Shown piece by piece: positions 19,628 through 62,668 of a stretch of 64,000 bases of DNA (its first letter is position 1; every line of letters starts with the position of its first letter). The notes beneath the pieces are model-generated. The model had not been told where the DNA came from. It ran no database searches and worked only from the letters and a program-made list of their open reading frames with translations. Made by a program: the position numbers and the translations under genes. The DNA comes from Hypholoma sublateritium FD-334 SS-4 (lineage: Eukaryota > Basidiomycota > Agaricomycetes > Agaricales > Strophariaceae), in contig KN817581.1 in assembly GCA_000827495.1 (NCBI GenBank), positions 1 to 64,000 on the forward strand. Reading direction: 5' to 3'.

Positions 19628-20453
19628 TTACAACGAGATGATCGAAGCAAGGTCGGTGAGTCCAGGAATGGGGACTAAAGTTACGAGCGTCGGGATGAGG
19701 CCGCCAATGAGACCCGGCGCGAGGTCAGTGATCAAGACAAGGACATCTGCAACGACGGTACTGGTAAGAGTCATGTTAGTGGTCTTCAATAAGCAGGTAC
19801 GATGAATGAAGCGCACCCAATCTCCTCAACCAGAGGAGTGAGGATAGGGCCGAGAGGAGTAATGGCAATGACATTAGCTACAAGAGCAATGACCGTGAAA
19901 AGCAGCTAATTAAAAGGCAGAAAATTAATAAAAGATTTCAAGCTGGACGGTGGCGGCAGGCTTACTTGAAGAAGGGGCGCGAGGACACCGATAATCGAGT
20001 TGATGCTGGCCAGCGACTGGACAAGGGTGACAGGGCTCGCGGCGATCGCGGTCAATTGAGCCTTGACGGATTGAACTTCGGAAAGGACAGCGTTGAGGCT
20101 CCTCGTGACGAGCTCCTGGTTGATGTCGGCCTTGTTGGCCACGGCGGTCTCTACAATCAATATTCGAACGTGAGGTAATACGATGAGATGCTACTTCACG
20201 CACGCAGGGTCTTCAGAATAGGTGTCAAGTTCGTCGACGCGTTTTCGAAGATCTGCTGGAAGGAGGCCGTGGTGGGAGCAGCGGCGGTCGAGGCGGTGCT
20301 CTCAGCGTCGGGCGCGCGCCTCATGGGCATAGCGAGAGCTGCATTGTCGACGCGGGCAGCGAGAGAGTTGGAGGCCGACTCAGGCACGGGGACAGCGAAG
20401 GCGGACGCGGCGAAGACCAGAGCGACGAACGGTGCGAAGGATTGGAAAAGCAT
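19628..20453 (-). CDS. Secreted protein family member A (divergent), 218 aa
   Basis: Exons 20453-20204, 20150-19966, 19905-19817 and 19760-19628 (250, 185, 89, 133 nt) close in frame with intron phases 1, 0, 2, the same layout as members C to I. The N-terminus is a clear signal peptide (MLFQSFAPFVALVFAASAFA) followed by a propeptide-like stretch with an Arg-Arg pair (MPMRRAPDAES). The mature part is amphipathic to hydrophobic (SINSIIGVLAPLLQ, PLGPILTPLVEEIG, LIGGLIPTLVTLVPIPGL) and lacks Cys. Sequence identity to the other members is low, and helices such as NQELVTRSLNAVLSEVQSVK are unlike them. The shared gene structure, the exon-3 PLGPILTPLV motif and the LTPIL motif at the end of exon 1 suggest common ancestry. 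The function is unknown; secretion or wall association is the only inference. Confidence 0.75.
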
Positions 20454-20564
20454 CTTGTAGATTCGAAAGGAATGTGGGTGTCGGTTGGACGAGTATGAAA
20501 GCACCGAAGTCGATAAAGGCAGGTAGGCAAGCAGCTCGATATGTTTTCCGGATTTGCAGCACCA

Positions 20565-20572
20565 TATTTATA
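20565..20572 (-). promoter_or_regulatory. TATA box of member A
   Basis: TATAAATA on the minus strand, about 112 bp upstream of the ATG at 20453. It is the most distant and least canonical TATA of the family. Confidence 0.5.
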
Positions 20573-21318
20573 TGTGAGTGCACGGAGGTGGACGGGAATG
20601 AGAAACCGAGCTCCGTAAGGCGTGGATTTACGCGGGCAGCTTCTAGCGCGGCTTGGAAGTGGAAGCGAATAGCTCCAACATTCATGTTACCTCACTAGAC
20701 ATTTGGGGTGTTGCACTTTTCCCATCGTAACCAGGTGGATTCCTGCGCTGTCCATCAGCCTGGCCGCCATGATCTTTGCGTCATCTTTCAAGTCTTTGAG
20801 CAATCGATGGTTGGGGAGTGTGACCATTGATAACTGCAATATTGCGCCACATTTGTGGGTAGCGCGCCAATAGGCGCCAGTCTTATCCAACTTGGACTTG
20901 AAGGGAGGTGTAGTTCATGGAGCAACTTGACATTGAATGAAGCTGGAATGAAGTTGAAAATATACTGATTTGAAAGGGAGATCATGTATTTTAAATCGTA
21001 CAACTTCTTGAAGTCTTTGGTCTCTCCGACGAATTGTTAGTATCCATAAAGTTCCGTCGAATAGCCATAAAGTATGAGCGGCAAATGAGCGGACAAAGTC
21101 AAGATCGAAGAGAGTGTTGACTCGGAGACTGGAGTTGACTCGGAGCTGGCGGGTTGGGGAGCACGTGTCCGGGCCGAGGCGGCGCGGCGGATCTTGTCTC
21201 AATCCGCGGCCGCGCGGCGCGCGCCTAAAATGCAGGGTCAGCTTGCTTGCTTTGCTCCATGACACGACTTCCGGGTCGACTTGCTTCGCACAACTTCTAG
21301 AACCCACACACAATTAAT
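20573..21318. other. Intergenic between member A and the 21.3-kb gene
   Basis: No supported gene. The stretch 21160-21230 is GC-rich, with many CGCG motifs, next to the start of the downstream gene and is probably its promoter region. Confidence 0.4.
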
Positions 21319-22191: not shown

Positions 22192-22439
22192 ACCTGTGAA
22201 CCTCTGGATGCATCGCACGGCCCCCCTCAAATGCCCGTATGAAACGATGCCGTTGAAATACATCAACCTAATCTTCATCCACATATTCGTGTCTCCACCA
22301 TCCGATGAAATACCTTCATCAGCCTGACATGCATAGATCTGTGCTATGCATAGTGTCTCACCCCCACCTCCGCCTTACAGCCGTCGCTGGGATCCGTCAT
22401 CTCAATACAAATCTGGCCCTGGGCTATTCACATCAGTAC

Positions 22440-24480
22440 ATACGCTAACCCTCGGACTTGCGACATTCATAATCCAGACCACGACCGCGAGTATCAACAA
22501 GCAGCGAAACCAGCCTCATATGTCCAACAGGGGTCGGCATCTCCAGGATGCGGGCGCTCGTTGCATAGAGCAGGCTCGATTAGCCCCTCCGCGACGGCGA
22601 CCTCCCACAATTCCGGGGCGTCTGTTTTCCAACGCTGCGCGAAGTCTGAGCTTATGCGCATTGTCCAGCCATCTCCGAGCACGCGTTTGCGCCACCGCAT
22701 GACGCGCAGGGCGCGGGGAAAGTTGAGGTAGTCGTGGGTGCCGTACGCGGGCGCGGTGTAGAACATGTGGCTGGGTGACACGCCGCTGGACGGCCAAAGC
22801 GGGAGCAGCGAGGATGCTTTCACCATCACTTCGGAATGGCGTACGTAGTTCGGCTCGGCTTCCCTGTACTCCCGAACGATTACGAGCTGCGATATGGTGC
22901 GCGTCGCGTGCGCAAGGGAGGTGACGCATTGTAGATCGTCGTACAGGTCCCGAGGGCAATTGACCAGAGCGAGTAGTTCTAGCGAGGGAAACATCGGTGG
23001 GTTTGTGTCGTGCACAAAACTGTTGCCCCATGGAAAATGCCAGTCCTGGTTGATCGCGAGGTGTTTGAGTCGAGGCGCGCGCAAGGACCACAGCCATTGT
23101 GCACTTGCCGAAATGCGCAAATACTGGAGGTTGGGCGCCACAACCATTTCGGTGGCCATCGCTGAAGCGGCTGTTGGTGTTCTACCAAAAACATACCCGG
23201 AGATGGTCAGGGCTGTGATATTGGGAAAGTTTGAAAAGATGGAGAGAAACGAGTCCCAGGAGATGTTCCACTGGCCCAAGCCATGCAGTTGGAGGACGGA
23301 CAGAGATGCGCGGCACACCTTTCCGAAGTTTGGCTGGGGTATATTGACCGCTGCGTCCATCCGCAGTGCCACTAACCGGGGCGTGCTTGCCACATCGCTA
23401 ATCATACGGACGATATCCGTGTTCATCCACAGCAAGTATCCATGGCCCCGGGAGCAACCTATGTCAAGCGTCTCGAGATTGCTGTAGTTAAATCTGTGGG
23501 GCGAGTCTGCGTCCGGCGAATGCTGTTGGGGGACCCAGCCTATCTCGCTTTCCCGGCCGAGGGTGTAATGCCGGTCGAACGCCAGCGAGATCTTTCGCCA
23601 TCGTGAATTGTTGGTGCACCGGAGCATTCCAAGGATAATGGTAACGTCTTCAGCTGTCGAGAAGCACACCCATAGAGTCAACAAGTTAGACTGTGCCCGC
23701 TCCAGGTATGCATGATGCCTGGCCGTAAAATGTTGCCTGTCGTATTTCGAGAAGTAGTGGAACGTGGACCATAGTGCCGGATCTGCATGGCTGATACTGC
23801 GCCAGGCTCGACAGACGTGGGATATTGTCAGCTCTTGGCCCTCCTCGCGAGCAAAGTGGGATAATTCTTCGGCCTTGATGCCAGATCTTCTGTTCTGGCA
23901 GATGATGGGAGATGGGTGGCACGCAAAACTGAATATCAACATAGTGATCTCGCTCGGAATGGAGAAGATTGGCAAGATTGGCGGGCATGCGTCGTTGTCT
24001 TGTGTCTGATGGATAGTAATCTCAGTGTTTTCAAAGGGGTCCATGGCTTCGCTGCTCGCACTCCAGAGTCCACATATAACTGTCGGACAACTGTCGAATG
24101 AGCGATGATTAGCTGGATCTGAAAGTAAGCTTGAAGAATACCAGAAACACGGCGTACTTTGGAAGTATTATGTACCAGTTTGCCTCTCACCTTGAAACCA
24201 TCGAGATAATTCGTAAACGTGTTTTATGCAAAGGCAACGCAGAGGGTTTGGGATTTCAGGTTGAAGCGTTCAAAAGTCCGTCTGATTCTGGAGAGAAAGC
24301 AGATATTAATCTTTCTCAGCGCATCCCAATCTCACTAACTTGAACGTCAGGGAAATGTGGCAGAACTTGGCTAAAACGCTCTCGAATTTATTTGTGAGGG
24401 TGACTTGAAGGTGATGCGAGCTGCCTTGGGAAATAGCGTGGGATATTATTATAAAATATATGTACATCACGTGACTAACA
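22440..24480. repeat. Segmental duplication, copy 1 (F-box unit)
   Basis: This segment is matched by 24810-26850. Similarity covers the whole F-box gene. It also covers about 50 bp beyond the stop (CATTCATAATCCAGA versus CATTCATGATCCAGA) and several hundred bp upstream of the ATG (for example the GTGTTTTATGCAAAGGCAACG block near 24220). The offset is about 2.38 kb. Confidence 0.75.
22494..24044 (-). CDS. F-box/LRR-like protein 1, 516 aa
   Basis: Single exon. An F-box-like motif lies near residues 25-50 (ILPIFSIPSEITMLIFSFAC), with the second half of the motif near residues 78-96 (ISHVCRAWRSISHADPALWS). The remainder alternates short Leu/Ile-rich strands with charged helices (NLETLDIGC, LVALRMDAAVN, NLQYLRISASAQW, SLELLALVNCPRDLYD), as in LRR-type F-box proteins of Agaricomycetes. 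F-box proteins recruit substrates to SCF ubiquitin ligases; the substrate here is unknown. The neighbour at 24873-26411 is a paralogue over the full length, from tandem duplication. The first Met was chosen because the paralogue aligns from there. Confidence 0.85.
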   Translation of the reverse strand: MDPFENTEITIHQTQDNDACPPILPIFSIPSEITMLIFSFACHPSPIICQNRRSGIKAEELSHFAREEGQELTISHVCRAWRSISHADPALWSTFHYFSKYDRQHFTARHHAYLERAQSNLLTLWVCFSTAEDVTIILGMLRCTNNSRWRKISLAFDRHYTLGRESEIGWVPQQHSPDADSPHRFNYSNLETLDIGCSRGHGYLLWMNTDIVRMISDVASTPRLVALRMDAAVNIPQPNFGKVCRASLSVLQLHGLGQWNISWDSFLSIFSNFPNITALTISGYVFGRTPTAASAMATEMVVAPNLQYLRISASAQWLWSLRAPRLKHLAINQDWHFPWGNSFVHDTNPPMFPSLELLALVNCPRDLYDDLQCVTSLAHATRTISQLVIVREYREAEPNYVRHSEVMVKASSLLPLWPSSGVSPSHMFYTAPAYGTHDYLNFPRALRVMRWRKRVLGDGWTMRISSDFAQRWKTDAPELWEVAVAEGLIEPALCNERPHPGDADPCWTYEAGFAAC

Positions 24481-24809
24481 TGGGCTAGGTCGACGCGCCA
24501 AAATGTTAGGGCGGAAGCCGACCTGTATAGGAGGATAGCATCCGTCGCTATTCAAGCATTGCTCATATAGAGAACGGTCACCGGTCTACCGAAATGTCAT
24601 CCGGATTCCGAGCACTCGTCAGTATTGCTGTCTTGGACGTTCTCATAGGCTGGATCGTCCCAGCTAACGCACGTTCTCAATGGATCTAAATCTTGTGGCT
24701 CAACGGTGCTGTGGGGACAGGGAAATATACTCTCGAACGATACAAATATTGTAGAACTCTGCCTGGCCAAGGTCATACCCGTGGAATCTTTCAGTAAGTT
24801 TCGCCCAGG

Positions 24810-26850
24810 TTGTTCACATACCACTAACCCTCGTATTTGCGACATTCATGATCCAGAAGACGACTGCGACTATCAATAAGTAGCAAAGCCAGCCTCGTAT
24901 GTCCAGCAGGGGTCGACATCTCCAGGACGCGGGCGCTCGTCACGTAGAACAGGCTCCACCAGCCCCTCTGCGACGGCGACCTCCCACAGTTCCGGGGCAT
25001 CCGCACTCCACCGCCGCACGAAGGCCGGGCTGATGCGCAACGTCCAGCCGTCCCCGAGCAAGCGCTTGCGCCACCGCAATACGCGCAGGGCGCGGAAGAA
25101 GTCGATGTAGTTGCGGGTACCGTACGCGGGCGCGGTATAGAATATGTGGATGGGCGACACGCCGTTGGACGGCCAAAACGGGCGCATCGAAGGCGTTTGA
25201 ACCATCATTTCGTACTGGCGCGCGTCTTTCGGCTCGGTTTCGCTGTATTCCCGAGCTATTACGAGCTGCGATATGGTGCGCGTTGCGTGCGCGAGGGAGG
25301 CGACGCATCGCAGATCGTCGTAGAGATGAGGAGTGCAATTGACCAGAGTGAGTACTTCCAGCGAGGGAAACATCGGCGGGCTTGCGTCGCCCAAAATATC
25401 GTCACCCCATGGAAAACGCCAGTCTGATAGCCGCGCCTGCGTGATGGAGAGGTGTCTGAGTCGAGGTGCGTGCAGGTACAACCACAACCATAGCACAGTA
25501 TTTGATGAAATGCGTAGATATTGGAGATTAGGCGCTATGACTTTTTGAGTTACTGTGCTCGGTGCGCTGCTGAAAATACAGCCGGAGATAGTCAGGGTGG
25601 TGAGATTAGGAAAGTTTGAGAAGATGGAGAGAAATGTTTCCCAGGAAAGGCCCCAGTGACCCCAGCTATGTAACTGTAGAACGGAAAGGGATGCACGGTG
25701 CATCTTTCCGAAAGGCTGCAATATAGTCGCCCCTGCGTCTACCCGCAGTGCCGCTAAGCGCGGCGTGCACGCCACTTCTCCGATTATACGGTTAATATCC
25801 GAGTTCATCCACAGCCAGTATCCGTCGGGGCACCCCACGTCAAGCGTCTCGAGATTATCGTAGGAGAATCTGTGAGCGTTTGCGTCCGGCGAATGCTGTT
25901 GCCTTGGGAGGACCCAGACCATTTTGCGCTCCAGGGAGTAATTCCGGTCAAAAAGCAGCGAGATCTTTCGCCACCGTGAATTGTTGGTGCACCGGAGCAT
26001 CTGAAAGATATTGGTTACATCTTCGGTTGATGAGAAACACACCCATAGAGTCAGCAGGCTCGACTGTGCCCGCTCCAGGTATGCACGACGCCTGGCCGTA
26101 AAATGCTGCCTGTTGTATTTCGAGAAGTAGTGGAACGAGGACCATAGTTCCGCATATGCAAGGCTGATACTGCGCCAGGATCGACAGACATGGGATACTG
26201 TTAGTTCATGGCCCTCCTCGCGCGCAAAGTGCGACAGTTCTTCAGCGTTGAACCCGTGCATTCTGCTCTGGCCGAAGATGGGGGATGGGTGACACGCAAA
26301 ACTGAATATCAACATAGTGATCTCGTTCGGAATGGAAAAGATTGGCAAGCATGCGTCGTTGTCTTGTGTCTGATGGGTAGTGGCAGTCTCGATGTCTTTC
26401 GAGGGGCCCATGGCTTCGCTGCTTGCACTCCACATCTAGCTGTCGGGCGGGCGACGGTTAGCTGGATCGATTGCTGGTTAAACTCGAGGAACTCACATGA
26501 AAGTGTGCTCGAAGAATATAGAAAACACGAGGTATTTTGGGTGTATCATGTACCGGTTTGCCGTCGAAACCATCATGATGAATCTCGAGCTTGATGACTC
26601 GCGAACGTGTTTTGTGCAAAGGCAACGCACAGGGTTCGGGATTTCAAATTGACATCCATTCAAAGCCAGTCTCATTCTGGGGAGCAAATAGAGATTAATC
26701 GTGCTCTGTGCCTCCCAGGTGCTTCGCCATCTCGCTAACTTTCGGTAAATGTGGTAGAACGCTCAAAGAACATTCTCGAATTGATTTGTGGCTGGCCGCC
26801 ATGCGCTCTCGGGAAATAACGTGGGATATTGTCATATACATCACGTGTCA
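24810..26850. repeat. Segmental duplication, copy 2 (F-box unit)
   Basis: Second copy of the unit at 22440-24480 in the same orientation. The shared upstream block includes GTGTTTTGTGCAAAGGCAACG near 26610 and an AATAACGTGGGATATT segment near 26816 that also occurs near 24434. Confidence 0.75.
24873..26411 (-). CDS. F-box/LRR-like protein 2, 512 aa, tandem paralogue
   Basis: Single exon. The start is Met at 26411 (MGPSKDIETA), which aligns with the start of the first copy; an in-frame Met at 26435 is an alternative. The F-box core (LPIFSIPNEITMLIFSFACH, VCRSWRSISLAYAELWSSF) and the LRR-like strands closely match the paralogue. They differ by scattered substitutions and a few small indels rather than stops, which indicates that both copies have been kept under constraint. 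Both end in the same WTYEAGFA tail. Confidence 0.85.
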   Translation of the reverse strand: MGPSKDIETATTHQTQDNDACLPIFSIPNEITMLIFSFACHPSPIFGQSRMHGFNAEELSHFAREEGHELTVSHVCRSWRSISLAYAELWSSFHYFSKYNRQHFTARRRAYLERAQSSLLTLWVCFSSTEDVTNIFQMLRCTNNSRWRKISLLFDRNYSLERKMVWVLPRQQHSPDANAHRFSYDNLETLDVGCPDGYWLWMNSDINRIIGEVACTPRLAALRVDAGATILQPFGKMHRASLSVLQLHSWGHWGLSWETFLSIFSNFPNLTTLTISGCIFSSAPSTVTQKVIAPNLQYLRISSNTVLWLWLYLHAPRLRHLSITQARLSDWRFPWGDDILGDASPPMFPSLEVLTLVNCTPHLYDDLRCVASLAHATRTISQLVIAREYSETEPKDARQYEMMVQTPSMRPFWPSNGVSPIHIFYTAPAYGTRNYIDFFRALRVLRWRKRLLGDGWTLRISPAFVRRWSADAPELWEVAVAEGLVEPVLRDERPRPGDVDPCWTYEAGFATY

Positions 26851-26878
26851 AATGCGGACTTGTCAATTTCCCGCGCAA

Positions 26879-26892
26879 CCCCCCCCCCCCCC
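26879..26892. repeat. Homopolymer C run
   Basis: Fourteen consecutive C at the upstream edge of the second F-box unit. Such runs are prone to length errors in sequencing. Confidence 0.9.
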
Positions 26893-32837: not shown

Positions 32838-32865
32838 GTGTGGTGTGGTGTGGTGTGGTGTGGTG
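32838..32865. repeat. GGTGT short tandem repeat
   Basis: About five consecutive copies of a 5-bp unit (GGTGT) within the GC-rich block. Confidence 0.8.
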
Positions 32866-33049
32866 GACTGTGGGCGCCGGTGCGGCGTTGGGGGAAGCAG
32901 GCAGGCGAGGGAGCAAGCAGGCAGGAATGGGGTTAATGGGCGTGGGCGGGGGCGGGGAAGAAGGTGGTGGGGCAGGAGCAGGCGGGCAGGCGCTCGGGCG
33001 GGCCAGAAAAGTCCAAGATATCGTGCACGGGCGTGCACAGCACGGCTAC

Positions 33050-33071
33050 GTTCGTTCGTTCATTCGTTCGT
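33050..33071. repeat. GTTC tetranucleotide microsatellite
   Basis: Five to six GTTC units with one interruption (GTTCATTC), directly before a CCCATCCAGATGGG palindrome-like block that also occurs near 27020. Confidence 0.8.
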
Positions 33072-33110
33072 CCCATCCAGATGGGCGTCCGTGTACCAAT
33101 CACACCACGC

Positions 33111-33524: not shown

Positions 33525-33699
33525 CGTGCGGGGGACTATGGGGATCTTGGGTGGTGCGCGGCACGGGTTAGAGGCAGAGAGAGTATGTGGGGGTGAGTAG
33601 CACGAGAAAGAGGAAGAGCAAGAGCAAGAAGATGGACGAGCCAAACGATCGACGCTTGCACTGTTGCGAAGAGGCCTGGGAACTTGAACTGCACTGAAC

Positions 33700-35460: not shown

Positions 35461-35462
35461 CA

Positions 35463-36214
35463 CTACAACGTCGGAACCAGCGGGACGACAGAGCCCAGGC
35501 CCGCGTCGTCGAGGAGCGGGGTGAGCGCGGTCGTCAGCCCCGGCACGGCGCCGGTCAGGGCGGTGAGGCCCGCCGCGGTGAGCGTGCTGTGTAGATGTGT
35601 GTGTGTATAGGTGAGCGTCAAATCAGGAATACACGGCACTACGCGTACGTGATATTGGACACGAGCGGCGCGATGGTCGGCCCAAGCGAGGGGACGGCGG
35701 ACACCGCGCCCGTGGCGGAGGTGATCATCGTCGAGACGGTCTGTATAGATATGACCACTGCGTCAGGCCCCTGGAAAGGTAGAGGAGAGATGAAATAGTG
35801 TGCGCACGGTGAGGAAGGGCCCGAGCGCAGAGGCGACGCCGCCGACCGACGCGGTGCCGGACGCGGGCGTGGTAACGGTGATACCCTCGACGTCCGACAC
35901 GAAGGTCGTGAGCACCCCCGCGGCGTCCGCGAGGCCGCCCGTGAGCGCGGCACCGCCGCTCGTGCTGGCCGCGGCGGACGCAGCCGACTCTGTCGGGAAG
36001 AGAAAGTGAGAACGCGGTGTGTGATCCCGCGAAGGGGGGCGTACGCACCCACGGCGGTGAGTATGGGCGTCAGCGCCGCGGTGGCGTCTCCGACGGCGGT
36101 CTCGATGGCGGTCTCGACGCTGGACAGCTGACGGCGCGCCACGGGGGCGGCCGCACCCGCAACGACGCCCGCGAGGACGAGTGCAGCGAATGGTGCGAGG
36201 AGGCGGAAGTGCAT
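35463..36214 (-). CDS. Secreted protein family member C, 187 aa
   Basis: Exons 36214-36049, 35989-35808, 35740-35649 and 35586-35463 (166, 182, 92, 124 nt) close in frame, phases 1-0-2. The signal peptide is MHFRLLAPFAALVLAGVVAG. It is followed by a very short pro-segment ending in the dibasic site ARRQLSSVET, so the expected mature N-terminus is QLSSV. Exon 2 holds GGAALTGGLADAAGVLTTFV and exon 3 the family hallmark SATGAVSAVPSLGPTIAPLV. Exon 4 is Leu/Thr/Gly-rich (LTALTGAVPGLTTALTPLLD). No Cys, Trp or mature Tyr. Codon use is far more GC-rich than in F to I, in keeping with the surrounding GC-rich block. There is no SSSTGTG repeat. It is the closest member to the GC-rich repeat field and is inverted relative to F-I. 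Confidence 0.88.
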
Positions 36215-38989: not shown

Positions 38990-39957
38990 TCACAAATTAA
39001 GCAGGGAGAGGATCGAAGTGAGGCCGACACCGCTAAGGATGGGGGTGAGCGCTTCGGTAGTGAGCAGTGGAACCTCCAAAGTCGTGAGGAGGAGGCTCGT
39101 GGTAGTCAGTGAGCTGTGGAGGATATAAGTTGGCGCTTAAAGCGGAAGAAATGCACAGCGGCGCAACGTACTTGATCGTGGACACGGCGGGCGAGATGGT
39201 TGGGCCGAGCGCAGGGACAGCGGACACGGCGCCTGTGGCGGTAGCAAGGAGTTCAGAAATAATCTGCGCAAATCACGAGGGTCAGTCTTGTATTCAGTGG
39301 ACGAAATGAGTGCTTACGCTGAGAAGAGGAGTGAGGATAGAGGTGATATCGGTGATCGACGAGATACCGGAAGTTGCGCTAGGGCTACCAGCGAGCCCCT
39401 CTAATGAAGACACGAGGGTAGTGAGGATACTGGTCGCACTCGCGAGGCCGCCCGTCAGCGCGGACCCATCGATGCCGCTCGCCGATCCCGTGCTTGAGGA
39501 ACCTGCTCCCGTGCTGGATGAGCCTGTTCCCGTGCTGGAAGAGCCTGTACCCGTACTGGAAGAACCGGTCCCAGTGCTAGATGAACCTGTTCCCGTACTG
39601 GATGAACCTGACCCTGTGCTGGAAGAGCCTGTCCCCGTACTGGTGGAGCCTGTCCCTGTGCTGGAGGACCCCGTTCCCGTGCTGGAAGACCCGGTGGCCC
39701 CTTCTGAAGGAAATCTGAGCTGCAGGCATGGCCAAAAAGGAGCCTGTACACATACCCACGATGGAGAGTATCGGATCCAAGGCCGTCGTTGCGTTCTGGA
39801 TAATTCCTAGAATGCCGGACAGGCCAGCCAACTGACGGCGGCTGAGGTTCAAGGTCGCGATTTGAGCGCCAGGAGCGTTTGGAGTGGGGACAGCCGTAAC
39901 GGATGTGATCCACGCCAAAACAACGGTGGCGAATGGAGCGAAGAAACGAAAATGCAT
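38990..39957 (-). CDS. Secreted protein family member D with 10-copy SSSTGTG repeat, 267 aa
   Basis: Exons 39957-39756, 39703-39318, 39263-39172 and 39113-38990 (202, 386, 92, 124 nt) close in frame, phases 1-0-2. Signal peptide MHFRFFAPFATVVLAWITSV; dibasic site LSRRQLAGLSG. Exon 2 is enlarged by a 210-bp tandem array of ten 21-bp units encoding SSSTGTG variants, inserted between the short EGAT start of exon 2 and the family core DGSALTGGLASATSILTTLV. Exon 3 has LLATATGAVSAVPALGPTIS. Exon 4 has LTTTSLLLTTLEVPLLTTEA. The Ser/Thr-rich repeat is a likely O-mannosylation stalk. That would suit a protein displayed at, or spaced from, the cell wall. It is closest to member I, which shares exon 4 almost word for word and also carries the repeat. 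Confidence 0.92.
39480..39689 (-). repeat. 21-bp coding minisatellite, 10 copies (member D)
   Basis: Exactly 210 bp, read on the minus strand as ten in-frame 7-codon units of the pattern SSSTGTG, with third-position drift and single replacements (STSTGTG, SSSTGSG, SSSTGAG, and SSSTGSA at the end). Synonymous differences between units show it is not a very recent expansion. Confidence 0.95.
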
Positions 39958-41271: not shown

Positions 41272-42100
41272 TTACAGCAGTGAAAGAATGGAACCCAGGC
41301 CACCCCCGCTAAGGAGGCCACCCCCGCTGAGGATCGGGCCGAGAAGAGACGTAACTCCAGGTATAGTTAGAGTCGTAAGTAGGAGGCTTGTAGTAGCCAA
41401 CCCGCTGATAAAGATACGTGTTAGTATTCGATACGATGACAATATTACACGGCGCACGACGTACCTTATCGTCGACACGAGCGGCGCGACAGTTGGGCCG
41501 AGGACGGGAACGGCGGAGACGGCACCTGTGGCGACAGCAAGGACCTCAGTGACGATCTGTGTGCATATTGTTTGAGATCGTGTATTTGACGGGACATGCT
41601 GAGTACTTACGCTGAGAAGAGGGCTAAGGAGAGAGGTGATATCGGTGATCGAATCAAGACCTGATGATGCGCCGCGGGTAGTCGCAATCCCTTCCAGCTC
41701 AGACACAAGAGAGGTGAGCACGCTGGCAATGCTCGAGAGACCGTCCGTCAGTGCAGACCCATTGATAGCTGTCGGGCTGGAAGGGGCTGTCCCCGTGCTG
41801 GAAGAGCCGGTCGTCGAGCTGGAAGAGCCTGTGACCGCCTCTGCAGAAAAAAAATGTAGCTGGATGTAAAGCTCACAAGTGACTTTTGCACGTACCCAAG
41901 CTAGCGAGTATGGGTCCCAAGATGGATGTTACATTTTCGACGATTCCTAGAATGCTGGACAATTGACGGCGACTAACTTCCGAGGCCACGCTTTCGGGGG
42001 CAACTCGCGCGTCAAGAGCGTTGGGTGAAGGGGAAGCTGCAACAGCGACAATCCCTGTAAGAATGACAGTGGCGAGTGGAGCGAAGAAACGGAAGTGCAT
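41272..42100 (-). CDS. Secreted protein family member E, 219 aa
   Basis: Exons 42100-41896, 41840-41611, 41556-41465 and 41404-41272 (205, 230, 92, 133 nt) close in frame, phases 1-0-2. Signal peptide MHFRFFAPLATVILTGIVAV; a longer propeptide than in F-I precedes EVSRRQLSSILG. Exon 2 begins with two to three degenerate repeat units (SSSSTTG, SSSTGTA, PSSPTAI), then NGSALTDGLSSIASVLTSLV. Exon 3 has LAVATGAVSAVPVLGPTVAP. Exon 4 ends with a duplicated GGGLLSGGGLG segment, and its length (133 nt) matches member F. A head-to-head layout with F places the GH5 gene between their upstream regions. Confidence 0.92.
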
Positions 42101-51879: not shown

Positions 51880-52634
51880 ATGCAATTCCGTTTCTTCGTG
51901 ACGTTCGCCACTGCTGCAATGGCAGGGATCGGCGCCGTTGTGGCCGCCCCCGCACCCAACACCGACAGTGTCGACTTGGCTGCTGATCGTCGTCAGCTGT
52001 CCAGCATTACGAGTATCATCCAGACAGCAACGGATGCGTTAACGCCTATCCTCTCGATCCTAGGTGCGTGTTAAGCCATTACTTATGAGTTACTTCCGAC
52101 TTAATACTCAATACTTTCTGCAGAGGGAGCGAGTGCTTCTGGAGATGGATCGGCGCTGACGGGCGGCCTCTCGAGCGTTACCAATATACTTACCTCTCTG
52201 GTGTCCGAGCTCGGGAGCCTTACCGGTTCTGCAACCGGATCCTCCGGCCTTGGCTCGATCACCGACATCACCTCTCTCCTTGGCCCTCTTCTCAGCGTAA
52301 ACACTCAGCTTTTTCTGGACTAAAAAAACGACCTCACACGATATTCCCCCAGATTGTCTCGTCTATCCTTGCTACCGCCACAGGGGCCGCAAATTCCATC
52401 CCCCTCGTTGGACCGACCGTCGGCCCGTTGTTGTCCACGGTCACGTACGTTGCACCGCCGTACACGACCGCAGTATTAAGCACTAACGCGAGTTTACTCA
52501 GTTCTCTTGCGACTACGGCCATCCTCCTCATGACCACTACTCTGGGGCTTGGGAGCATTCTCAGCCCAATCCTGGGTTCAACCGGCTTGGGTTCCATCCT
52601 CGGTGGTACGGGTCTTCTCGGTGGTCTGCTGTAA
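51880..52634 (+). CDS. Secreted protein family member F, 193 aa
   Basis: Exons 51880-52063, 52124-52296, 52353-52444 and 52502-52634 (184, 173, 92, 133 nt) close in frame, phases 1-0-2. Signal peptide MQFRFFVTFATAAMAGIGAV; propeptide APAPNTDSVDLAAD ends at RRQLSSITSI. Exon 2 core: GDGSALTGGLSSVTNILTSL. Exon 3 departs most from the family consensus (ATATGAANSIPLVGPTVGPL). Exon 4 ends in a Gly/Leu repeat, GLGSILGGTGLLGGLL, of the same length class as member E, suggesting that E and F descend from one locus split by inversion. No Cys in the whole precursor. Confidence 0.92.
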
Positions 52635-52700
52635 GACAGAACTGGCTGGGGGATATCAAGGCCATACATCTACAACTTTGATGGGTGGCCTCTCTCGTTT

Positions 52701-54930
52701 GTTTGTAATCGGATTGGAATATATGCTTTACCATGTGACGACGTAGAAAAAAACAAGTACTTGTCATGTGGAAGTGTGCAATTGGGACAGCGACATATCT
52801 GGACTCAGTGCAGATGATATGCAACTTTAAAAAATAGAGTGTGTCGCAAAGCGGGGAGACGAGTTTTGGAGCTACAAAATATTCCCTGTCCACATTTAAT
52901 TCACTGGCACTGCAACAAGTGCTCATACCTACTCAGTCAGTACTCGGTATTCAAGTATTCAATGTAGAGTGAGTAACGCCGCAAGCCGCTCGTTTAGCGC
53001 TCCTGTTCGTCAACCTAATCAAATACACTTGCGAAATGTTCGGTGAGCGGTTTAACGTCGCGCCGAGAACGTGTGGTGCAGAAATAGGCGCTCGCGGTCC
53101 CCGGAGAAACATCATTGTGAGGCACGTGGCGCGCAGCGGGTGAGCACTGAGTACCACGCTGTGAGCCACGGAGACAGTAGCCCGAACCCTAAGAAGTCAA
53201 AAAAACACCATGGTGAAAACCTACTGCCCAAAGTGGAAAACCTTCTATAAAAACAGACGAATATATCCATTTTCAGAGGCTTCTCTGCGCATTAAGTTCT
53301 TTTGATCGTCTAACCCGAATAAAGAAAACGCCTCTCCGCAAGTCTGCGGGAATCAATAATTTAAATCGGAAACTGCCAAAACATGGGAGTTATTGCGTCA
53401 TTTTTCAGATTGCCACCATCGGAGTTCATAGATGCACTCAGGCTAACCCGCCGGTAGAAAGAAGCTTGTGCGCTCAAAATACGCCAAAATGTACACGGAA
53501 TTCGTAATGGAGGGCGCCTAGTCAGATTCAGAATATCCCATACAAATGGAAATGTTATATTTTGCGAGCTACTTCTGCCTGGTGCCACCATCAACAATTG
53601 TAGCCGGATGCATCTCTGTGCGCACTGCGCACGTTGCGAGTATGAGAATTAACATCGAAATATGCCCTCACTTAGAAATCACTTGTTACCTTAGTAGGAC
53701 TAGCGCAAAAGAACAAAGTTGTAAAGCATGCGCCACTACAACGGGCAGTGTACAGTGCACCCAAATAGACCGTTCTGCATAGTAGGAGGATGCCACGCCG
53801 TTTCGTAACGCTCGTAGTAATGATCAACGGATAATCAAGCTTCCACCAGACGAGACGTGACGTGTGGGCGAAGCCTTCGCTCGCCTTCCCTATTGACTGA
53901 CAGCTTCATCAAAGCACGTCACCCATGTGAATTTTGGAGATTTGAATGTTTCCACTGATTTGGTATCCTCTAATATTTTATATGTTCTTCCGTATGTGTG
54001 GCGTCGTACATACATGTTGAACTCTCTGTTGTATTGAAGCCTTGACAGATGTAAATTACTATTCCCAGTCTCCGAGTGCAGCGTGCGTCGGCATTCTTGT
54101 GTCAGGGGAGCCTCCTGACCAACCTCTAATTAGCACGCCGCGGCACCACAGTGATCTATAATTAGCTCACTTGAAAGACAAGCGCCCAAGGTCAACGGTG
54201 TAGTATCTCCATTTACGCAACATATATATCCGAATTGGAGAAATAAGACGTGCTCTCTCTTATTTTTTGAGTTTATTTCTCTCTCTGTGCGCTTGTGCGT
54301 TAGTATAACGTACCCGGCAGCTCACAGATGGAACCCGGAGATTGACCTGAGAACCGACCTAATATTAAGTTGATGCCTCGACCTCGAGGTGATTGCGATA
54401 GGCTGATGCAGACTTAATGCGTATGGTCCGGAGGTCCTGTCTGCCGGTGGGATCGTCACTCGTGCCTGCATATGGAAACAGGTGTAGTTTGTCAGAACCC
54501 ACTCTAAATCCATCTCTTCAAATTTGCTTCTGGGATTGTGTTAAGGTTAAGACATAATGTACGAGCTATGCCCTTCGTATAATCGATGCTTTCAACTGCA
54601 ATATCCTGGTGCAAATAAACAGAGCGGACATAGTGTCTTATTTTAGCATACGTTTGTATTTTAGTGCTTGCATATTGGCCCCACTGAATTTAGCCATGAT
54701 ACAATCTCAAGTGCTTCTTAACACTCCACAACGGAATTATATTAACCAGTGCTCCATAGATTTTATCGCTGTTCAATACAAAGAAACACAGCAATATGAA
54801 GATTGTGCGGAGATTTGTGTATCCACGCGTTCCTGCGATGAGACGTATGTTTTGTTCGTGCTAGTAGTCCCGAAGATTTTCTGGAAATCGTATTTATGCG
54901 TCATTCCTCTGCGATTCGCCCTCGCAGATC
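52701..54930. other. Intergenic; upstream module of member G
   Basis: No gene recognised. 53220-53400 and onwards repeats the module described for F (CTTCTATAAAAACAGACG...CTTCTCTGCGCATTAAGTTC near 53243, GATGCCACGCC at 53788, CAAGCGCCCAAGG near 54181, GACCTGAGAACCGACCTAAT at 54344). Confidence 0.55.
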
Positions 54931-54938
54931 TATAAAAG
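54931..54938 (+). promoter_or_regulatory. TATA box of member G
   Basis: TATAAAAG, 84 bp upstream of the ATG, followed by GAGCTCAGTACTTCCATACTC in the 5' UTR. Confidence 0.7.
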
Positions 54939-55014
54939 CGCAGATGTGTAATCGCTGAAGAGCATCCCGGAGTCCACCGATTTTTCGAGCTCAGTACTTC
55001 CATACTCACCTACA

Positions 55015-55759
55015 ATGCATTTCCGTTTCTTCGCCACGCTCGCCACCGCTGTCCTGGCAGGGACTTCCGCCGTCTTGGCCGCCCCAGCGCCCACCGCCGA
55101 CAGTGCTGACCTGGCTATTGACCGCCGCCAGCTGTCTAGCATTACTTCAATCCTCGGAACAGCAACGTCAGCGTTGGGACCCGTGCTGTCCATCGTTCGT
55201 TCGTACAATAATTTCTCGTCAGCTGTAATCCGCACTGAATCTCTCTCCGTAGAGTCAGCGGGCGCTTCCGGAGACGGGTCGTCGCTTACGGGCGGTCTCA
55301 CAAGCGCTACGAGCATTCTAACCACTGTCGTATCTTCGTTGGAGGGGCTCGCTGCATCTGGCACCGGCACAGCAACCGGCCTTGGGTCGATCACCGAAAT
55401 TACCGGCCTCCTCACCCCCCTTCTCGCGGTAAGCACCCCTTCGTTCCTCCAACTGAAATACAATCTTACGTGATTCTGACACAGATAATTTCTGAACTCC
55501 TTGCTACCGCCACAGGTGCCGTGTCCGCCGTTCCCGCGCTCGGCCCAACCGTCACGCCCGCCGCGTCCACAATAAGGTACACCGTGCTGCCTTGCATTCC
55601 TTTCGTATCTAGCTCCAACTTAAGTATATCCTTGACAGCTCGCTCACCACTACAATGCTCCTCCTCACGGCGTTGGAGGCGCCAGGGCTTACGACCTCGC
55701 TCGTCCCAATACTGACTGGGGACGGCCTTACCTCGGTCCTCTCTGGGCTTAATCTGTAA
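55015..55759 (+). CDS. Secreted protein family member G, 190 aa
   Basis: Exons 55015-55198, 55253-55428, 55485-55576 and 55639-55759 (184, 176, 92, 121 nt) close in frame, phases 1-0-2. Signal peptide MHFRFFATLATAVLAGTSAV; propeptide APAPTADSADLAID ends at RRQLSSITSI. The first donor is GTTCGT instead of GTACGT/GTGCGT. That makes the junction codon Gln (SIVQSAGASG) where most members have Gly-Glu. Exon 2: GSSLTGGLTSATSILTTVVS. Exon 3: LLATATGAVSAVPALGPTVT. Exon 4: LTTTMLLLTALEAPGLTTSL. Nearest relative is H, with the same exon lengths throughout. No Cys or Trp. Confidence 0.93.
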
Positions 55760-57972
55760 TAAAAAGAGGTGACCGCCGCGCAAGAGGACCACGCCTCTGC
55801 GAGTGTTCGGGGTGGATTTTTTGATTTTGTTTAGTTTGATTTTTATGTTGTTTTCATGCTGTACTTAGTCGATTAGGAATATGTTTCTTGAAGTGATCCA
55901 GTTACAATTTTGTGATACCCCTCCAGTTTTTTTGTTGATCGCTACAACGAGTCCGTAGACGCCGCCGGACGGCAGTGGCGAGCATGAGCCACGGGCCACA
56001 GCGGCCTGCACACACAATTTGACGAAGTTCGCTTTTGTCACGGGACTGAATTAGAAAGCTCCCACGAGCACCCACCGGGCACCCCGCCCGCGCCAGACTC
56101 GGAGGGCCTACATGAACATCTACCTGCTGTTTCTATTCACTCTGTCGCTCCACGATAGCGATCGGCCAGTTGTTTGGGACCCTGTCACTGCTGCCAGCTA
56201 GAGGCCACCTTCCGCGCGACACTGACAAGAACGCACGACGCGCATCAGGCAAGAGTGGCTCGAAAAAACGGCAGCAACGTTCTCCATCGCTGGATACTAG
56301 TTATGCTTGTGGGTACAACCAGGTACAACCGTGCTAATATGCGAGGTGGAGCCCGAGGTGGAGGGCGGGACGCGCTGCGTGCGCGTGTGTGTAGAGTGAC
56401 ACTCATACACTTATATATTCTCCAGTAAACCACTTGACGCCGTACCGTGAGTATGCGCTACAGAAATAGGTGAGGGCGCGTTGACGGAGACAGTGCAGTA
56501 TGGGGCACATGGAGCGGCGGGATATGGCCACGATGTGTGCCATGGGACCGAATGGTAAAAACCTGCTGCTCAATGCGGAAAACCTTCTATAAGTTGAAAA
56601 GTATCTATTGTCAGAGACTTCTCTTCGCCTTACGTTCTTTTTGTCGACACTAATCGGAACCAAGAAACAAGCTCCCCTAATGAAAAACTGTCTAAACACG
56701 AGAAATTCTGCGTTATTTTGCTGATTGGCAGCGTCTACAATCTCAGGCTTGTGCCATCGGGACAAGTCGTTGGTAGAAAGCAACTGGTGTGTTAGCGCAA
56801 AAGTACAAAGTTGTAAATAACGTTAGGAGCACTGCGCCATGGGAGGTACAGTTCCCAAAAATAGAGCGCACCGCATTGTAGGAGAACGCTACGCCATAAC
56901 CTTTGGAATGACCAAGCTGCTACTAGGCATGACGGTGGGCGGAGCCTCTCAACCACCCTTCCCTCTCTACTACTGAGAGTCTCATCATCGAAGCACGTCA
57001 TTCATGTAACTTTTGTAAATTTAAATTTTTCACTGTTTCAATACCTTCCAATTCTTTATAATTTCTTCCGTCTGGCGACGTACATACAAGGCAAATTTCC
57101 ATGTCGAATTGAACCTCAAATAAGCCCGCCTTTATCTATAAATAATTTAGTTAAACACTTACAAGCGCCCAAGCTCGACGGTGTAGTATCTCCATTTAGA
57201 TCGCGCACCTCCGAATTGTGGTGCTGTGCGGAACCCTCAATTATTATCTGAACTTGCCTCCCTCTGCGGGAACATAGGACAAGCCCGGCAGTGTAATTCA
57301 GAGACGAAGCCCCGAGATTATCCTGAGAATTTGAGTGGACCTAATATTAAGTTGATGCCTCGACCTCGAGGCGATTGTGCTAGGTTCAAGAAACATTGAT
57401 GCACACTGGCCTGTGGTACCTATATTCTTCGTCGTCCTTCATTGAGTGTAGATGTATACAGAGTCTATCAGACCCCTTTCTGAGTCCATATCCTTGTTTT
57501 TTTTAAAAATTGTGTTGAGAAAGTCGTCATAGGTGGAGAAATGTATGACAGACATGATGCGCAAAACACACGCTTCGTGAATCCAACGTTTTGAATTGGA
57601 AGAATCAGGTAAACAGAGCGGCCATAGCGTCTTGTCATGACATGCTTTCATATTTTACGGCCCACATATTAGCCTTGCTGCTCAATATAGCCGCAGGTTA
57701 ATCTCAAGGGCTTCTGAACACTCCACAGGAAAGGTATATGACCAAGGGCTCCATAGATGTCATCACGGACAAACACAAGGATTGCCTACAATCGCAAACA
57801 ACTCATAGAAATAGGGGAAATCTGCGCAGATTTATGTACATGTCTACACATTCTTTTGAGGAAACATATGTTTGATTCGTGCTAGTAAGTAATCTTGATC
57901 ATGGATTTCTAGGAATAGCAAGCAAGCATTATTACTCGGTAGTTTCGCTCTCTTAATTCTCACCGACTTGTC
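55760..57972. other. Intergenic; upstream module of member H
   Basis: No gene recognised. 56560-57400 repeats the module (AACCTTCTATAAGTTGAAAAG near 56580, CAAGCGCCCAAGCTCGACGG near 57163, CCTGAGAATTTGAGTGGACC at 57322). 56240-56400 is not shared with the other units. Confidence 0.5.
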
Positions 57973-57980
57973 TATAAAAG
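57973..57980 (+). promoter_or_regulatory. TATA box of member H
   Basis: TATAAAAG inside CACCGACTTGTCTATAAAAG, 87 bp upstream of the ATG. Confidence 0.7.
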
Positions 57981-58059
57981 CACAGATGCGCCCTAAGTAA
58001 AAAGTATCCCAACTTCCACCGGTTTTCTGAAGAGCTCAGTACTTCCATACTCATCTACA

Positions 58060-58804
58060 ATGCACTTCCGCTACTTCGCAACGCTCGCCGCCGCTGTCCT
58101 GGCAGGGACCTCCTCTGTCTTGGCCGCCCCAGCGCCTGCCGCAGACAGTGCTGATCTGTCAATTGACCGCCGCCAGCTGTCTAGCATTACTTCAATCCTC
58201 GGGACAGCAACGTCGGCGTTGGCCCCCGTGCTCTCCATCATTGGTACGTGCAACTATTCCTTATGAACTGCATCCGCGACTGAATCTCTGTCGGCAGAGG
58301 GGCTCGGCGCATCCAGCGATGGGTCGACACTGCAAGGCGCCCTCACGAGCGTTACCACCATTCTCACCGGGGTCGTGTCTTCGTTGGAGGGAATCGCTGC
58401 TTCTGGCGAAGGTGCAGGAACCGGCCTTGGGTCGATCACCGACATCACCGCCATCCTCGGCCCCCTTCTCGCTGTAAGTACCCGCTCGTTTCTTCGCCTG
58501 AAATACGGCCTAACGAAATTTGCACGTAGACCATTTCTGGGGTCCTTGCTACCGCCACAGGTGCCGTGTCCGCCGTGCCCGTGCTCGGCTCAACCATCAC
58601 GCCCGCTGCGTCCACGATAAGGTACACCGTGCTGCCTTGCATTACTCTCGTATCTAAGTAGCGCCAACTTATTCCCATAACAGCTCGCTCACTACTACGA
58701 TGCTCCTCCTCACGTCTTTGCAGACGCCGGGACTTGCGACCTCACTCGTCCCAATGCTCAGCGGTGCCGGCCTTACCTCGCTTCTTCCGGGGCTTAATTT
58801 GTAA
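58060..58804 (+). CDS. Secreted protein family member H, 190 aa
   Basis: Exons 58060-58243, 58298-58473, 58530-58621 and 58684-58804 (184, 176, 92, 121 nt) close in frame, phases 1-0-2. Signal peptide MHFRYFATLAAAVLAGTSSV; propeptide APAPAADSADLSID ends at RRQLSSITSI. Exon 2 shows the most replacements in the family core (DGSTLQGALTSVTTILTGVV). Exon 3 begins TISGVLATATGAVSAVPVLG. Exon 4: LTTTMLLLTSLQTPGLATSL. Paralogy with G extends through introns and the 3' flank (GTAAGACGGAGGTGAC versus GTAATAAAAAGAGGTGAC), so the G/H duplication is the youngest in the array. Confidence 0.93.
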
Positions 58805-61741
58805 GACGGAGGTGACTTCCACGCAGGAGGGCTACGCCACTGTGAACAGTGCAAGGGGTGGATTTGTAGTTTCATTTAACTTTCGGTTGGGCGTCGCGTT
58901 GTAGTCGATTTGGGATACTCATATGTTCTTTGATATGAGTCCGTCATATATGTGCCGTATAGGTTCCAGTACGTTTTGTTGGTGATCCCTGCAGAAACGA
59001 GTCTGCAGACGGTGATGAGCATGAGCGTGAGCGCTCAGCGGAGTGCACGAAATTCGACGTTAGTCACGGTTCGCATTCAACGTTCAAATCGTTTGGAAAT
59101 CGTTCAACACGTGTCCAGGTGGGCCGATTCCCACGACCTGCCCCGTCTTCCCACGTTCTGCCGCCTCGTCCCTCTGCGCAGAGTCTGCGATAAGTAGTAG
59201 GATTACCAATTTAATGTTGCTGGCTGTGCTCCGTCCTACTGCCAGTGTACCCATAAATACTGCACATAAATATATGATAACTATCCAATTCCCGTCCAAC
59301 GCCTCTCCACCTCCTGCGCGCGTTCTCTGGTCGGAACAAGTGCGCGCCGTCGAGGCGCCACGGAGTCAGCGAGGTGGGGATGGGGTGCTGCACCACCAGC
59401 TGGTATAGGCCTTTTATACAGGAGAAAACACCCAAAACACGCCTCCCGCAAAGTTACGTTCTGGTGTTGGTATCAATTAACTGTTTGGAGGCGCATCATC
59501 TCATACTGGTGGTTTGTGGTCAACATTTGCATATACTTAACATGGTCGTCAGCGTCAGGCAGGAAGATGCTTCTCTTAAAGCACATCGCAGTGCAGAACC
59601 TCGAAAATACTTAAGTAGCCCGTCATGACAACGGCGGTCCGCAGCGGGGGGGGATGCAGTCGTTAGATGAACTACAGAAAAATTGCCTCGCGAACGGAAT
59701 ATATTCGGAGCTACTACTCGATATTTTATGCTATGTGCGTGCCATAGAAAAACTAAGCAACATATTCCAACACAGATTCAAAACGCGGAGATAGGGCACG
59801 TGATTCTGTACTCTAAAATAGGCGCTCGCAGCCAGACGCCTAGGCCACGGCGAACGACGAACGTGTAGCCAGAAGTATTGACAGATCTCGGACAGCGGTA
59901 ATTTTCACGCTCCGATAGCGGCATTAAGGCCCCGGGTGCATGCACCCGAGCGAAATTCTGCGTCGAAATAGCAAAATTATCGCCCTTCCCCCTCACTTTC
60001 GGACCCGCCGTTTATATCGAGAGCAGCTTGTGTACTCAAAATACACAGATATGTTCACAGCGTGCGTCGTCATAGAGGCGCCCGAAAGACATTATATCAC
60101 TTATTTACATAAATATTATATTGTTACTTGCGCCTGGTGCGGCTGGACGCGTCTCACGTTGTAAGGCATGGGAAGCGGTGTAGAAATATCCCCTTATCCA
60201 AAGTTTAATTAAAACCTCATTCGGACTAGCGCAGCTGTTGAAGATTGTAACCCAAAGCACCAGGAAACATATGCGGTAAGATGCCACGCCGTTTTTATAA
60301 CGCTCACAATGATCAACCGATAATCAAGTTGCCACAAGAAATGACGTATGTAAGAAACCTACTCACCGCCTTCTCTGTCAACTGGAATGAAGATTCTCAA
60401 GATTATTTCTCCTTTCCGAAAAAAATGGTAGCATACTGAGGTTACATATTCTAGATCTATTGTTACAATATAGTGGTGTAATGATACTTGTGCAAGTAGC
60501 AGACTCGGACTCTTGCATTTCTGAGTTGAGAATGCTTTGATTCTCTCTGATTTCATATCCGAGAGAACCTTTCGTTGGCGATGACAATTCGAACAATCGC
60601 ATTATGATTCTCAAAAGGCTTCATCAAACCACGTTATCAATATAAATGTTGTATGTTTTTCTCTGATTTCACATCTTCCAATTTTTTGTACGTTCTTCCG
60701 TTCGCGCGTTATATTTGCATTCGACATCGCCCAATGATGGGACCTCTAATCTGCCTCCGAGGGACAGGATGTGGCGTCATCATTTGTGGCAGCTGTGTCG
60801 TCTCTCGACCAACCAGAATCAGTCCTACATAGCCAATTCACACGTGTATTGCGCGGCGCAAGTAAACAGTATCGCTTTTGTCTATAAATAGCTCCGTTAG
60901 GGGACAAGCGCCCAGGCTCCATGGACGGTACGGTCTCTCCATTTGCGCTGCGCACAGATTGGAGACCTTTTCTGGATAGACGCTATCCGAATCTGCGCAC
61001 CTACATTTCTGCGCACTTGTTTTACAGCCTTCCGTAGCTGGGAGTTCGCAGGTACAGCCGACAAAGCACCTGAGTTTGACCTGAGAGCGGAACTAATATT
61101 AGCCTAAGAAGATGCTGAGAGACACGGCCTCGAGGTACTTGCGTTATGTAGGTTGATGCAAGATGCACATTGGGCCGGGGTACCTGTCTGCCGGTGGGTT
61201 CTCCGTCGTTCCTACTTGTGAACGGATATATGCATGAGTTCTCAGACCCCACCCTCGGTCCGTATTTTTGCTTCATGTCGTTTTGTCCAGGAAAGTATGA
61301 TAGGCCGAGGAATTTAGCAGAGACATAGTGTGCGAAACAAATCCTTCGTATAAACAACACTTTCAATTGCACCCATGCGCCGGATCAGGTGAACAGAGCA
61401 TGCATATTGTCTTATGACATACATTCATTACTGAGTGCCCACATCTTGTCCGTTTCACTGAAGATAGCCACGGGATAATCTCAACAACTATGTAATACTT
61501 CGCAAGAGAATGAAATCGGAGAGTGTTCAACAGATCTCATCACGGCCGCATAGGCGTTTGCACGTCAGGGAGATGTAACTCATGGCTCTATGAAGAATGC
61601 GCCGATCCATGTCCCCACATGTTCTTGCGATAGAACATATGTTTTGTTCGTCCTATTGGCTCCGAACTCTTATGGGAATCTATCTGCAACTCATATACTA
61701 TTCCTCAGTGGCTTGGCTTTCTCGCGTCTCACCGACTTGTC
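58805..61741. other. Intergenic; upstream module of member I
   Basis: No gene recognised. The unit similarity starts near 60180 and is strong at 60281-60340 (GATGCCACGCC, GATCAACCGATAATCAAG), near 60905 (CAAGCGCCCAGGC) and 61078 (GACCTGAGAGCGGAACTAAT). 58960-60150 appears specific to this interval. Confidence 0.5.
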
Positions 61742-61749
61742 TATAAAAG
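61742..61749 (+). promoter_or_regulatory. TATA box of member I
   Basis: TATAAAAG inside CACCGACTTGTCTATAAAAG, 84 bp upstream of the ATG; identical context to member H. Confidence 0.7.
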
Positions 61750-61825
61750 CACAGACGCGTCGTCTCTGAAGAGCATCCCAGATTACAACGGTTTTCTGAG
61801 CTCAGTACTTCCACACTCATCTACA

Positions 61826-62668
61826 ATGCACTTCCGCTTCTTTGCCACGCTCGCCACCGCCGTCCTGGCCGGGACATCCGCTGTCATTGGCGCCCCCGCA
61901 CCCACCGCCGAGAATACTGACCTGGCCATCGACCGCCGCCAGTTGTCTAGCATCACTTCAATCCTCGGGATCGCAACGTCGGCGCTGGGCCCCGTGCTCT
62001 CCATCGTGGGTGAGTGCATACCGTGCTCTTCGCCGTACATATAGCTCACTCTATTACATTTTGCAGAGGGAGCTACAGGAACCGCGACGGGGACGTCCAG
62101 CACAGGTACAGGTTCTTCCAGCACAGGCACGGGCTCTTCCAGTACGGGTACAGGCTCATCCAGCACCGGCACAGGCTCATCCAGCGCGGGCGGCATCGAC
62201 GGGTCTGCTCTGACGGGTGGCCTCGCGAGCGCGACGAGCATCCTCACCACGCTCGTGTCGTCGCTCGAGGGCCTCGCGGGCAGCCCCAACGCCGCGTCCG
62301 GCATCTCGTCGATCACCGATATTACTGGCATCCTCACGCCCCTGCTCAGCGTACGCACCCATCACCTACCTGCTAAACCATTGCCTCACCCGACGTACAG
62401 ATCGTTTCTGAGCTCCTTGCTACCGCCACAGGCGCCGTTGCTGCCGTACCCGCGCTCGGCCCGACCGTCTCGCCCGCCGTGAACACGATAACGTACGCCG
62501 TGCCGCCGTGCACCAGTTTTGTGTCTCGCGCTGACTTGTATCATTGATAGCTCACTCACGACCACGAGCCTCCTCCTCACGACCTTGGAGGTGCCCTTGC
62601 TCACGACCGAGGCGCTCACCCCCATCCTCAGCGGGGTCGGCCTCACCTCCATTCTCGGCCTGCTGTAA
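61826..62668 (+). CDS. Secreted protein family member I with SSSTGTG repeat, 225 aa
   Basis: Exons 61826-62009, 62067-62350, 62401-62492 and 62551-62668 (184, 284, 92, 118 nt) close in frame, phases 1-0-2. Signal peptide MHFRFFATLATAVLAGTSAV; propeptide APAPTAENTDLAID ends at RRQLSSITSI. Exon 2 carries 4.7 copies of the 21-bp SSSTGTG unit, then GIDGSALTGGLASATSILTT, almost identical to member D. Exon 3: LLATATGAVAAVPALGPTVS. Exon 4: LTTTSLLLTTLEVPLLTTEA, shared with D. Exon 1 is closest to G and exons 2-4 to D, which points to gene conversion or recombination between members. Codon use is more GC-rich in exons 2-4. Confidence 0.93.
62093..62191 (+). repeat. 21-bp coding minisatellite, 4.7 copies (member I)
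   Basis: Four full 7-codon units starting at 62093, 62114, 62135 and 62156, plus a partial unit to 62191, encoding TSSTGTG then SSSTGTG. Same unit and same insertion site as in member D. Confidence 0.93.

Follow-up and report, generated by a model that had tools for sequence, protein, structure and literature searches.

A locally amplified family of cysteine-free, predicted secreted proteins in Hypholoma sublateritium

Introduction

Hydrophobins are small, secreted, hydrophobic proteins, and are defined by eight conserved cysteines. SC15, a secreted protein of the basidiomycete Schizophyllum commune, reportedly lacks cysteine and is hydrophobic in its C-terminal half; its role is reportedly given in the title of the paper by Lugones et al. 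2004. To our knowledge, no repeats, Arg-Arg (RR) site or gene cluster have been described for SC15. Here, we describe a gene family encoding cysteine-free, predicted secreted proteins in the wood decayer Hypholoma sublateritium FD-334 SS-4, a member of the Strophariaceae. Eight of the genes lie in the window, by which we mean the whole 64,000-nucleotide stretch of DNA that was analysed (positions 1 to 64,000 of contig KN817581.1, assembly GCA_000827495.1; contig C64 below).

Other systems also bear comparison. The HsbA/Mp1 domains bind lipids (PF12296; PDB 5e7x, 5ecf, 5fb7, 5csd, 5j5k, 5j5l). In Pleurotus, laccase-like multicopper oxidases are bound and stabilised by Nlac/POXA3 small subunits, and the structure of the Nlac small subunit from Pleurotus eryngii is solved (PDB 8paq). 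An extract of PMC10741624 states that small subunits raise both the stability and the activity of NLACs. More generally, between 40-60% of fungal secretomes consist of small secreted proteins, encoded mostly by orphan genes (PMC7105643, in extract). Pleurotus ostreatus, a white-rot fungus of the Agaricales, has duplicated small secreted proteins named Ssp1-6. Extracts of PMC5674062 and PMC7105643 describe strong induction of ssp1-3 by hydroxymethylfurfural (HMF), induction of Ssp1 in fungal interactions, and an influence of Ssp1 on ligninolytic enzyme production.

Results

The eight window genes fit a common four-exon model

A first-pass annotation of the window had claimed eight genes of four exons, with phases 1-0-2 and a third exon of 92 nt (89 nt in member A). 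Each of the eight intervals has an ATG start and a stop codon at its ends, and a four-exon open reading frame of exactly this kind exists in all eight. Note that the search was limited to phases 1-0-2 and a third exon of 89 or 92 nt, and that the best-scoring model was kept. Between 5 and 66 models per gene fit the imposed architecture and, in every case, the top-scoring one encodes no cysteine. The models from the restricted search are listed below, with exons in the order of transcription.

Member A, 218 aa; 19628..20453, minus strand; exons 20204-20453, 19966-20150, 19817-19905 (89 nt), 19628-19760; product equal to HYPSUDRAFT_56783
Member B, 187 aa; 35463..36214, minus strand; exons 36049-36214, 35808-35989, 35649-35740 (92 nt), 35463-35586
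Member C, 267 aa; 38990..39957, minus strand; exons 39756-39957, 39318-39703, 39172-39263 (92 nt), 38990-39113
Member D, 219 aa; 41272..42100, minus strand; exons 41896-42100, 41611-41840, 41465-41556 (92 nt), 41272-41404
Member E, 193 aa; 51880..52634, plus strand; exons 51880-52063, 52124-52296, 52353-52444 (92 nt), 52502-52634
Member F, 190 aa; 55015..55759, plus strand; exons 55015-55198, 55253-55428, 55485-55576 (92 nt), 55639-55759
Member G, 190 aa; 58060..58804, plus strand; exons 58060-58243, 58298-58473, 58530-58621 (92 nt), 58684-58804; product equal to HYPSUDRAFT_217782
Member H, 225 aa; 61826..62668, plus strand; exons 61826-62009, 62067-62350, 62401-62492 (92 nt), 62551-62668

When splice sites were scored without restriction, the 1-0-2 model ranked first only for A and E, and was outscored in the other six genes (B, C, D, F, G and H). 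Since splice-site scoring prefers other models for B, C, D, F and H, these five rest on the common architecture and the protein alignment. The first donor of F is weak (GTTCGT). Models for A and G are better settled, because their spliced products equal public proteins: A is identical, letter for letter, to HYPSUDRAFT_56783 of H. sublateritium FD-334 SS-4 (P0004), and G is identical to H. sublateritium HYPSUDRAFT_217782 (P0001). For B, C, D, E, F and H, no corresponding protein was found among the matches listed, though the query alignment contained all six exactly. These six appear either to be absent from the set of public proteins or to have other models there.

The family has at least ten members and relatives in other fungi

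The proposal of an eight-member family was right as to a real gene family; the count was too low. A whole-genome search with F revealed two further members outside the window, taking the total to at least ten. Member I starts at position 70518 of contig C64 (~70.5 kb, the contig that holds the window) and has a third exon of 89 nt. Member J is on contig C62 (~184968-185706), with a third exon of 92 nt. Both have four exons and phases 1-0-2, in models fixed by requiring the public proteins HYPSUDRAFT_217786 (P0009) for I and HYPSUDRAFT_204723 (P0002) for J. Genome searches with A, B, I and the relative P0007 gave no further clear member, and the counts are lower bounds. Weak genome matches occurred on contigs C13, C68 and C7 (E 0.47, 0.12 and 0.06); the stretch on C13 gave no tblastn match at E up to 1. 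Contig C64 has 227,147 bases here, whereas the database contig that carries P0001, P0004 and P0009 has 233,762; another assembly version is possible.

Pairwise protein identity is 43-82% within B-H and 28-34% for A against the others. Leaders were removed, each member was scored by a mature-chain profile that excluded it, and shuffled sequences served as the control. The profile of B-H and J scored A, I and all four relatives at 31-57 bits, with no more than 8.7 bits for 1200 shuffled targets. Reciprocally, the profile of A and the relatives scored all nine other members at 39-73 bits, with no more than 13.3 bits for 1350 shuffles. Chance similarity is ruled out: every member reaches at least 31 bits, against at most 13.3 for shuffles.

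The four relatives come from Flammula alnicola, Psilocybe cf. subviscida and two further Joint Genome Institute (JGI) sources. A profile search had been suggested as a check on novelty, with hits confined to fungi of the same exon phases taken as support for a new family. Relatives did emerge in fungi, Flammula and Psilocybe, from comparisons of proteins. In three word-limited protein searches (4503, 7999 and 7997 candidates), the matches listed comprised only H. sublateritium, Flammula alnicola, Psilocybe cf. subviscida and three other proteins, which is weak evidence for absence elsewhere. One database protein, P0003 (147 aa, ncbi source), has a family-like leader and an RQLSS start, and is 77% identical over 32% of F. 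It runs into intron-like sequence; the model probably belongs to another genome and is mis-spliced.

In a midpoint-rooted tree, A clusters with the relatives and B-J lie on the opposite side, both with support of 99/97; branching within B-H is mostly unresolved. The ratio of nonsynonymous to synonymous substitution rates (dN/dS) is 0.12-0.49 and dS is 0.35-1.18, in all 21 pairs among C-H and J (A, B and I were left out). We conclude that the family is under purifying selection. Some members were duplicated together with their flanks, as with F and G (listed below); J and G similarly share a match of ~1.6 kb at 75% identity. The members also share a promoter layout, with TATAAA found 64-119 bases upstream of the ATG in all ten.

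54616..58865, plus strand: tandem duplication including upstream DNA; F side 54616-55819 and G side 57610-58865, 74% identical (~1.2 kb)
39486..39689, minus strand: 21-bp tandem repeat, 9.7 copies, in exon 2 of C; codes for a Ser/Thr/Gly-rich stretch
41776..41832, minus strand: 21-bp tandem repeat, 2.7 copies, in exon 2 of D; codes for a Ser/Thr/Gly stretch
62096..62185, plus strand: 21-bp tandem repeat, 4.3 copies, in exon 2 of H; codes for a Ser/Thr/Gly stretch

The 21-bp repeat is in frame. Its copy number differs between the paralogues C, D and H, and could vary among strains.

Mature chains lack most reactive and basic side chains

Absence of cysteine, claimed for the eight window proteins, holds for all of them and, beyond the RR site, for all ten members. 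The proteins are small, predicted to be secreted and hydrophobic, as hydrophobins are; with no cysteine in any of the ten, hydrophobin identity is ruled out, as the first-pass annotation had argued. Two features go beyond that annotation: a single RR site, and a composition with almost no Lys, Arg, His, Trp or Tyr. RR occurs exactly once per protein, 27 to 46 residues in from the start, and Gln-Leu follows in eight. Kex2-type proteases cut after dibasic sites such as RR. With one RR per protein, the members are not KEP proteins.

Beyond RR, His, Trp and Tyr are missing from all ten proteins, Lys from nine and Phe from six. Eight have neither Lys nor Arg, the exceptions being A and D, and therefore have no internal trypsin site. 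The chains after RR are 152-226 residues long, with a grand average of hydropathy (GRAVY) of 0.49-1.16 and a calculated isoelectric point (pI) of ~4.05, which is presumably the floor of the calculating program. Codon-position shuffles of the same DNA gave means of ~7 to 17 Lys plus Arg per chain, and never reached 0 in 500 shuffles. Depletion is marginal in member A, which has 4 against a shuffle mean of 7.0. In the four relatives, the part after residue 24 is free of Cys and Trp but holds 5 to 15 Lys plus Arg and 2 to 8 Phe; His occurs in two. Because the relatives keep such residues, the depletion, and mostly the RR site, is specific to the H. sublateritium copies.

Predicted folds may resemble known helix bundles

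The earlier suggestion that the proteins belong to no named family stands at the level of sequence, where no Pfam family reached its cut-off in the seven of ten members scanned (A, B, D, E, F, I and J). Similarly, an NCBIfam scan of seven proteins gave no model at cut-off, and PF12296 (HsbA) had no match at E up to 1 in the same seven members and the four relatives (11 proteins). Several weaker matches were rejected. PF17615 (C166) matched F and E, two of the five members in that scan, at 19.7 and 20.5 bits against a cut-off of 36.7. We take PF17615 to be a family of an archaeal virus, and reject the match as compositional for this reason and because A, B and D had no match and the genome none over cut-off. 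Matches to Baculo_PEP_C (A, B and I), LXG, IL32, SKA2, Apolipoprotein (P0006 and P0008), IcmG/DotF and others were below cut-off, and are taken as compositional. So are PDB sequence matches to a BLOC-1 subunit (E 0.64), a designed coiled coil (0.0011), DNA circularization protein N (0.0051) and spider silk fibroin (0.05).

The suggestion fares less well for the fold. For both predicted structure models, the second-look aligner VIA gave the Nlac small subunit (8paq_B) as best match, followed by HsbA/Mp1 domains. The lead of 8paq_B over the next VIA match was 2.5 and 2.8 Z units for the two models. Hence, the predicted fold may not be new, and we read the genes as a new, locally amplified family of a probably known fold class. 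Three PDB sequence searches (queries A4, P0007 and A5) did not return 8paq among matches up to E 10, which is a narrow test, with one solved sequence as the target.

The same genome has an HsbA-family gene on contig C40 (L041), with one exon over the PF12296 cut-off (34.7 against 33.5 bits). Roughly spliced, its protein has a sequence match to the Mp4 fatty-acid-binding structure and keeps Lys, Tyr and Phe. This HsbA-type protein also fails to find 8paq in a PDB sequence search.

Discussion

We tentatively favour a possible role in coating: a family of cysteine-free, predicted secreted proteins, likely helix bundles in fold, that would attach to oily surfaces and lipids around hyphae or coat them. 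Briefly, the signal peptide is predicted to be removed from the precursor and a Kex2-type protease would then likely cut after the single RR, freeing the mature chain. This chain is predicted to fold as a helix bundle, of the general class of HsbA/Mp1 lipid-binding domains and the Nlac small subunit. Such a bundle could hold hydrophobic ligands or attach to hydrophobic faces. With Cys, Lys, Arg, His, Trp and Tyr scarce, the amplified copies would offer few targets for quinones, radicals and trypsin-like proteases around a wood-decaying fungus. A coat of this kind would suit oxidising, protease-rich surroundings. Three points weigh against this explanation, and also against the oxidase-companion role discussed below. 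A dibasic site is present in only one relative (P0005) and missing from the other three; Foldseek matches of both predicted models were non-significant, with 8paq outside those listed; and VIA's own background caveat weakens its fold matches.

A bolder proposal, about which we are rather doubtful, is that the proteins constitute a chemically inert secreted class. After the Kex2 cut, most amplified members would have no thiol, lysine amine, guanidinium, imidazole, phenol or indole. If the N-terminal Gln became pyroglutamate there would be no primary amine, leaving only occasional Met or Phe as reactive residues. The proteins would be a coat or carrier for the fungus's own cloud of laccase, peroxidase and quinone, and a 'dark secretome' invisible to trypsin proteomics, Coomassie and absorbance at 280 nm (A280). 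If true, composition would be linked to life in the oxidising extracellular space, and current secretome surveys would be missing a class of protein.

Other roles have to be weighed against coating. The members, at 187-267 aa for those in the window, are cysteine-free, predicted secreted and hydrophobic, traits that recall SC15. They could be SC15-like proteins, which we regard as improbable; no Schizophyllum protein was among the matches listed in the three word-limited protein searches. The main rival is that some members are companions of oxidases, binding and stabilising laccase-like enzymes in the manner of the Nlac/POXA3 small subunits. Such a role fits a composition that would resist oxidation, and fits 8paq_B as leading VIA match for the two predicted models. 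However, sequence searches and the listed Foldseek matches lack 8paq, none of ten window reading frames scanned has a laccase domain, and ten genes here contrast with the 1-2 NLAC proteins per species given in an extract of PMC10741624. The copy number makes a companion role for all members unlikely, and we hold the role itself to be unlikely too. Kinship with laccase small subunits is nonetheless possible, and directly testable.

Least probable, and quite unlikely in our judgement, is antagonism or signalling, where the proteins would target competitors or influence development of the fungus itself, as the P. ostreatus Ssp family may. Both sets are duplicated small proteins, secreted or predicted to be so, of Agaricales, and Table 1 of PMC7105643, in the extract consulted, gives three Ssp1 homologues for H. 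sublateritium. Against this, dN/dS is below 1 in every pair tested. Furthermore, Ssp1 and Ssp2 were detected by mass spectrometry (PMC5674062, in extract) and, if trypsin was used, such detection would be hard for chains free of Lys and Arg.

The family's most unusual trait is that reactive and basic side chains are almost completely lost; sharp and cheap predictions for proteomics follow. Standard trypsin-based surveys would likely miss most members. The family could thus be overlooked twice, because no protein among the database matches listed corresponds to six of the eight window genes, and eight of the ten mature chains cannot be cut internally by trypsin. A literature search with six locus names (four from H. 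sublateritium, one each from Flammula and Psilocybe) found no paper that carries them in the collection searched and, among the matches listed in topic searches, no title or abstract opening describes the family.

Other features of the window

Members A-D and E-H form oppositely oriented groups. Between them, a frame at 45481-48717 encodes a glycoside hydrolase family 5 C-terminal domain (PF18564). Open reading frame 44270-44749, which lies between D and E, had been suspected of encoding a tyrosinase; this is ruled out, as Pfam gave no match to it (E up to 0.01) and PF00264 matched nowhere on the contig. The apparently GC-rich region 31600-35300 contains many overlapping long open reading frames on both strands. 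Finally, two tandem genes on the minus strand lie within 22438-26836 (at 22494-24044 and 24873-26435), and their weak F-box-like matches fall short of the Pfam cut-off; the genes are 76% identical over 2.1 kb, including flanks.
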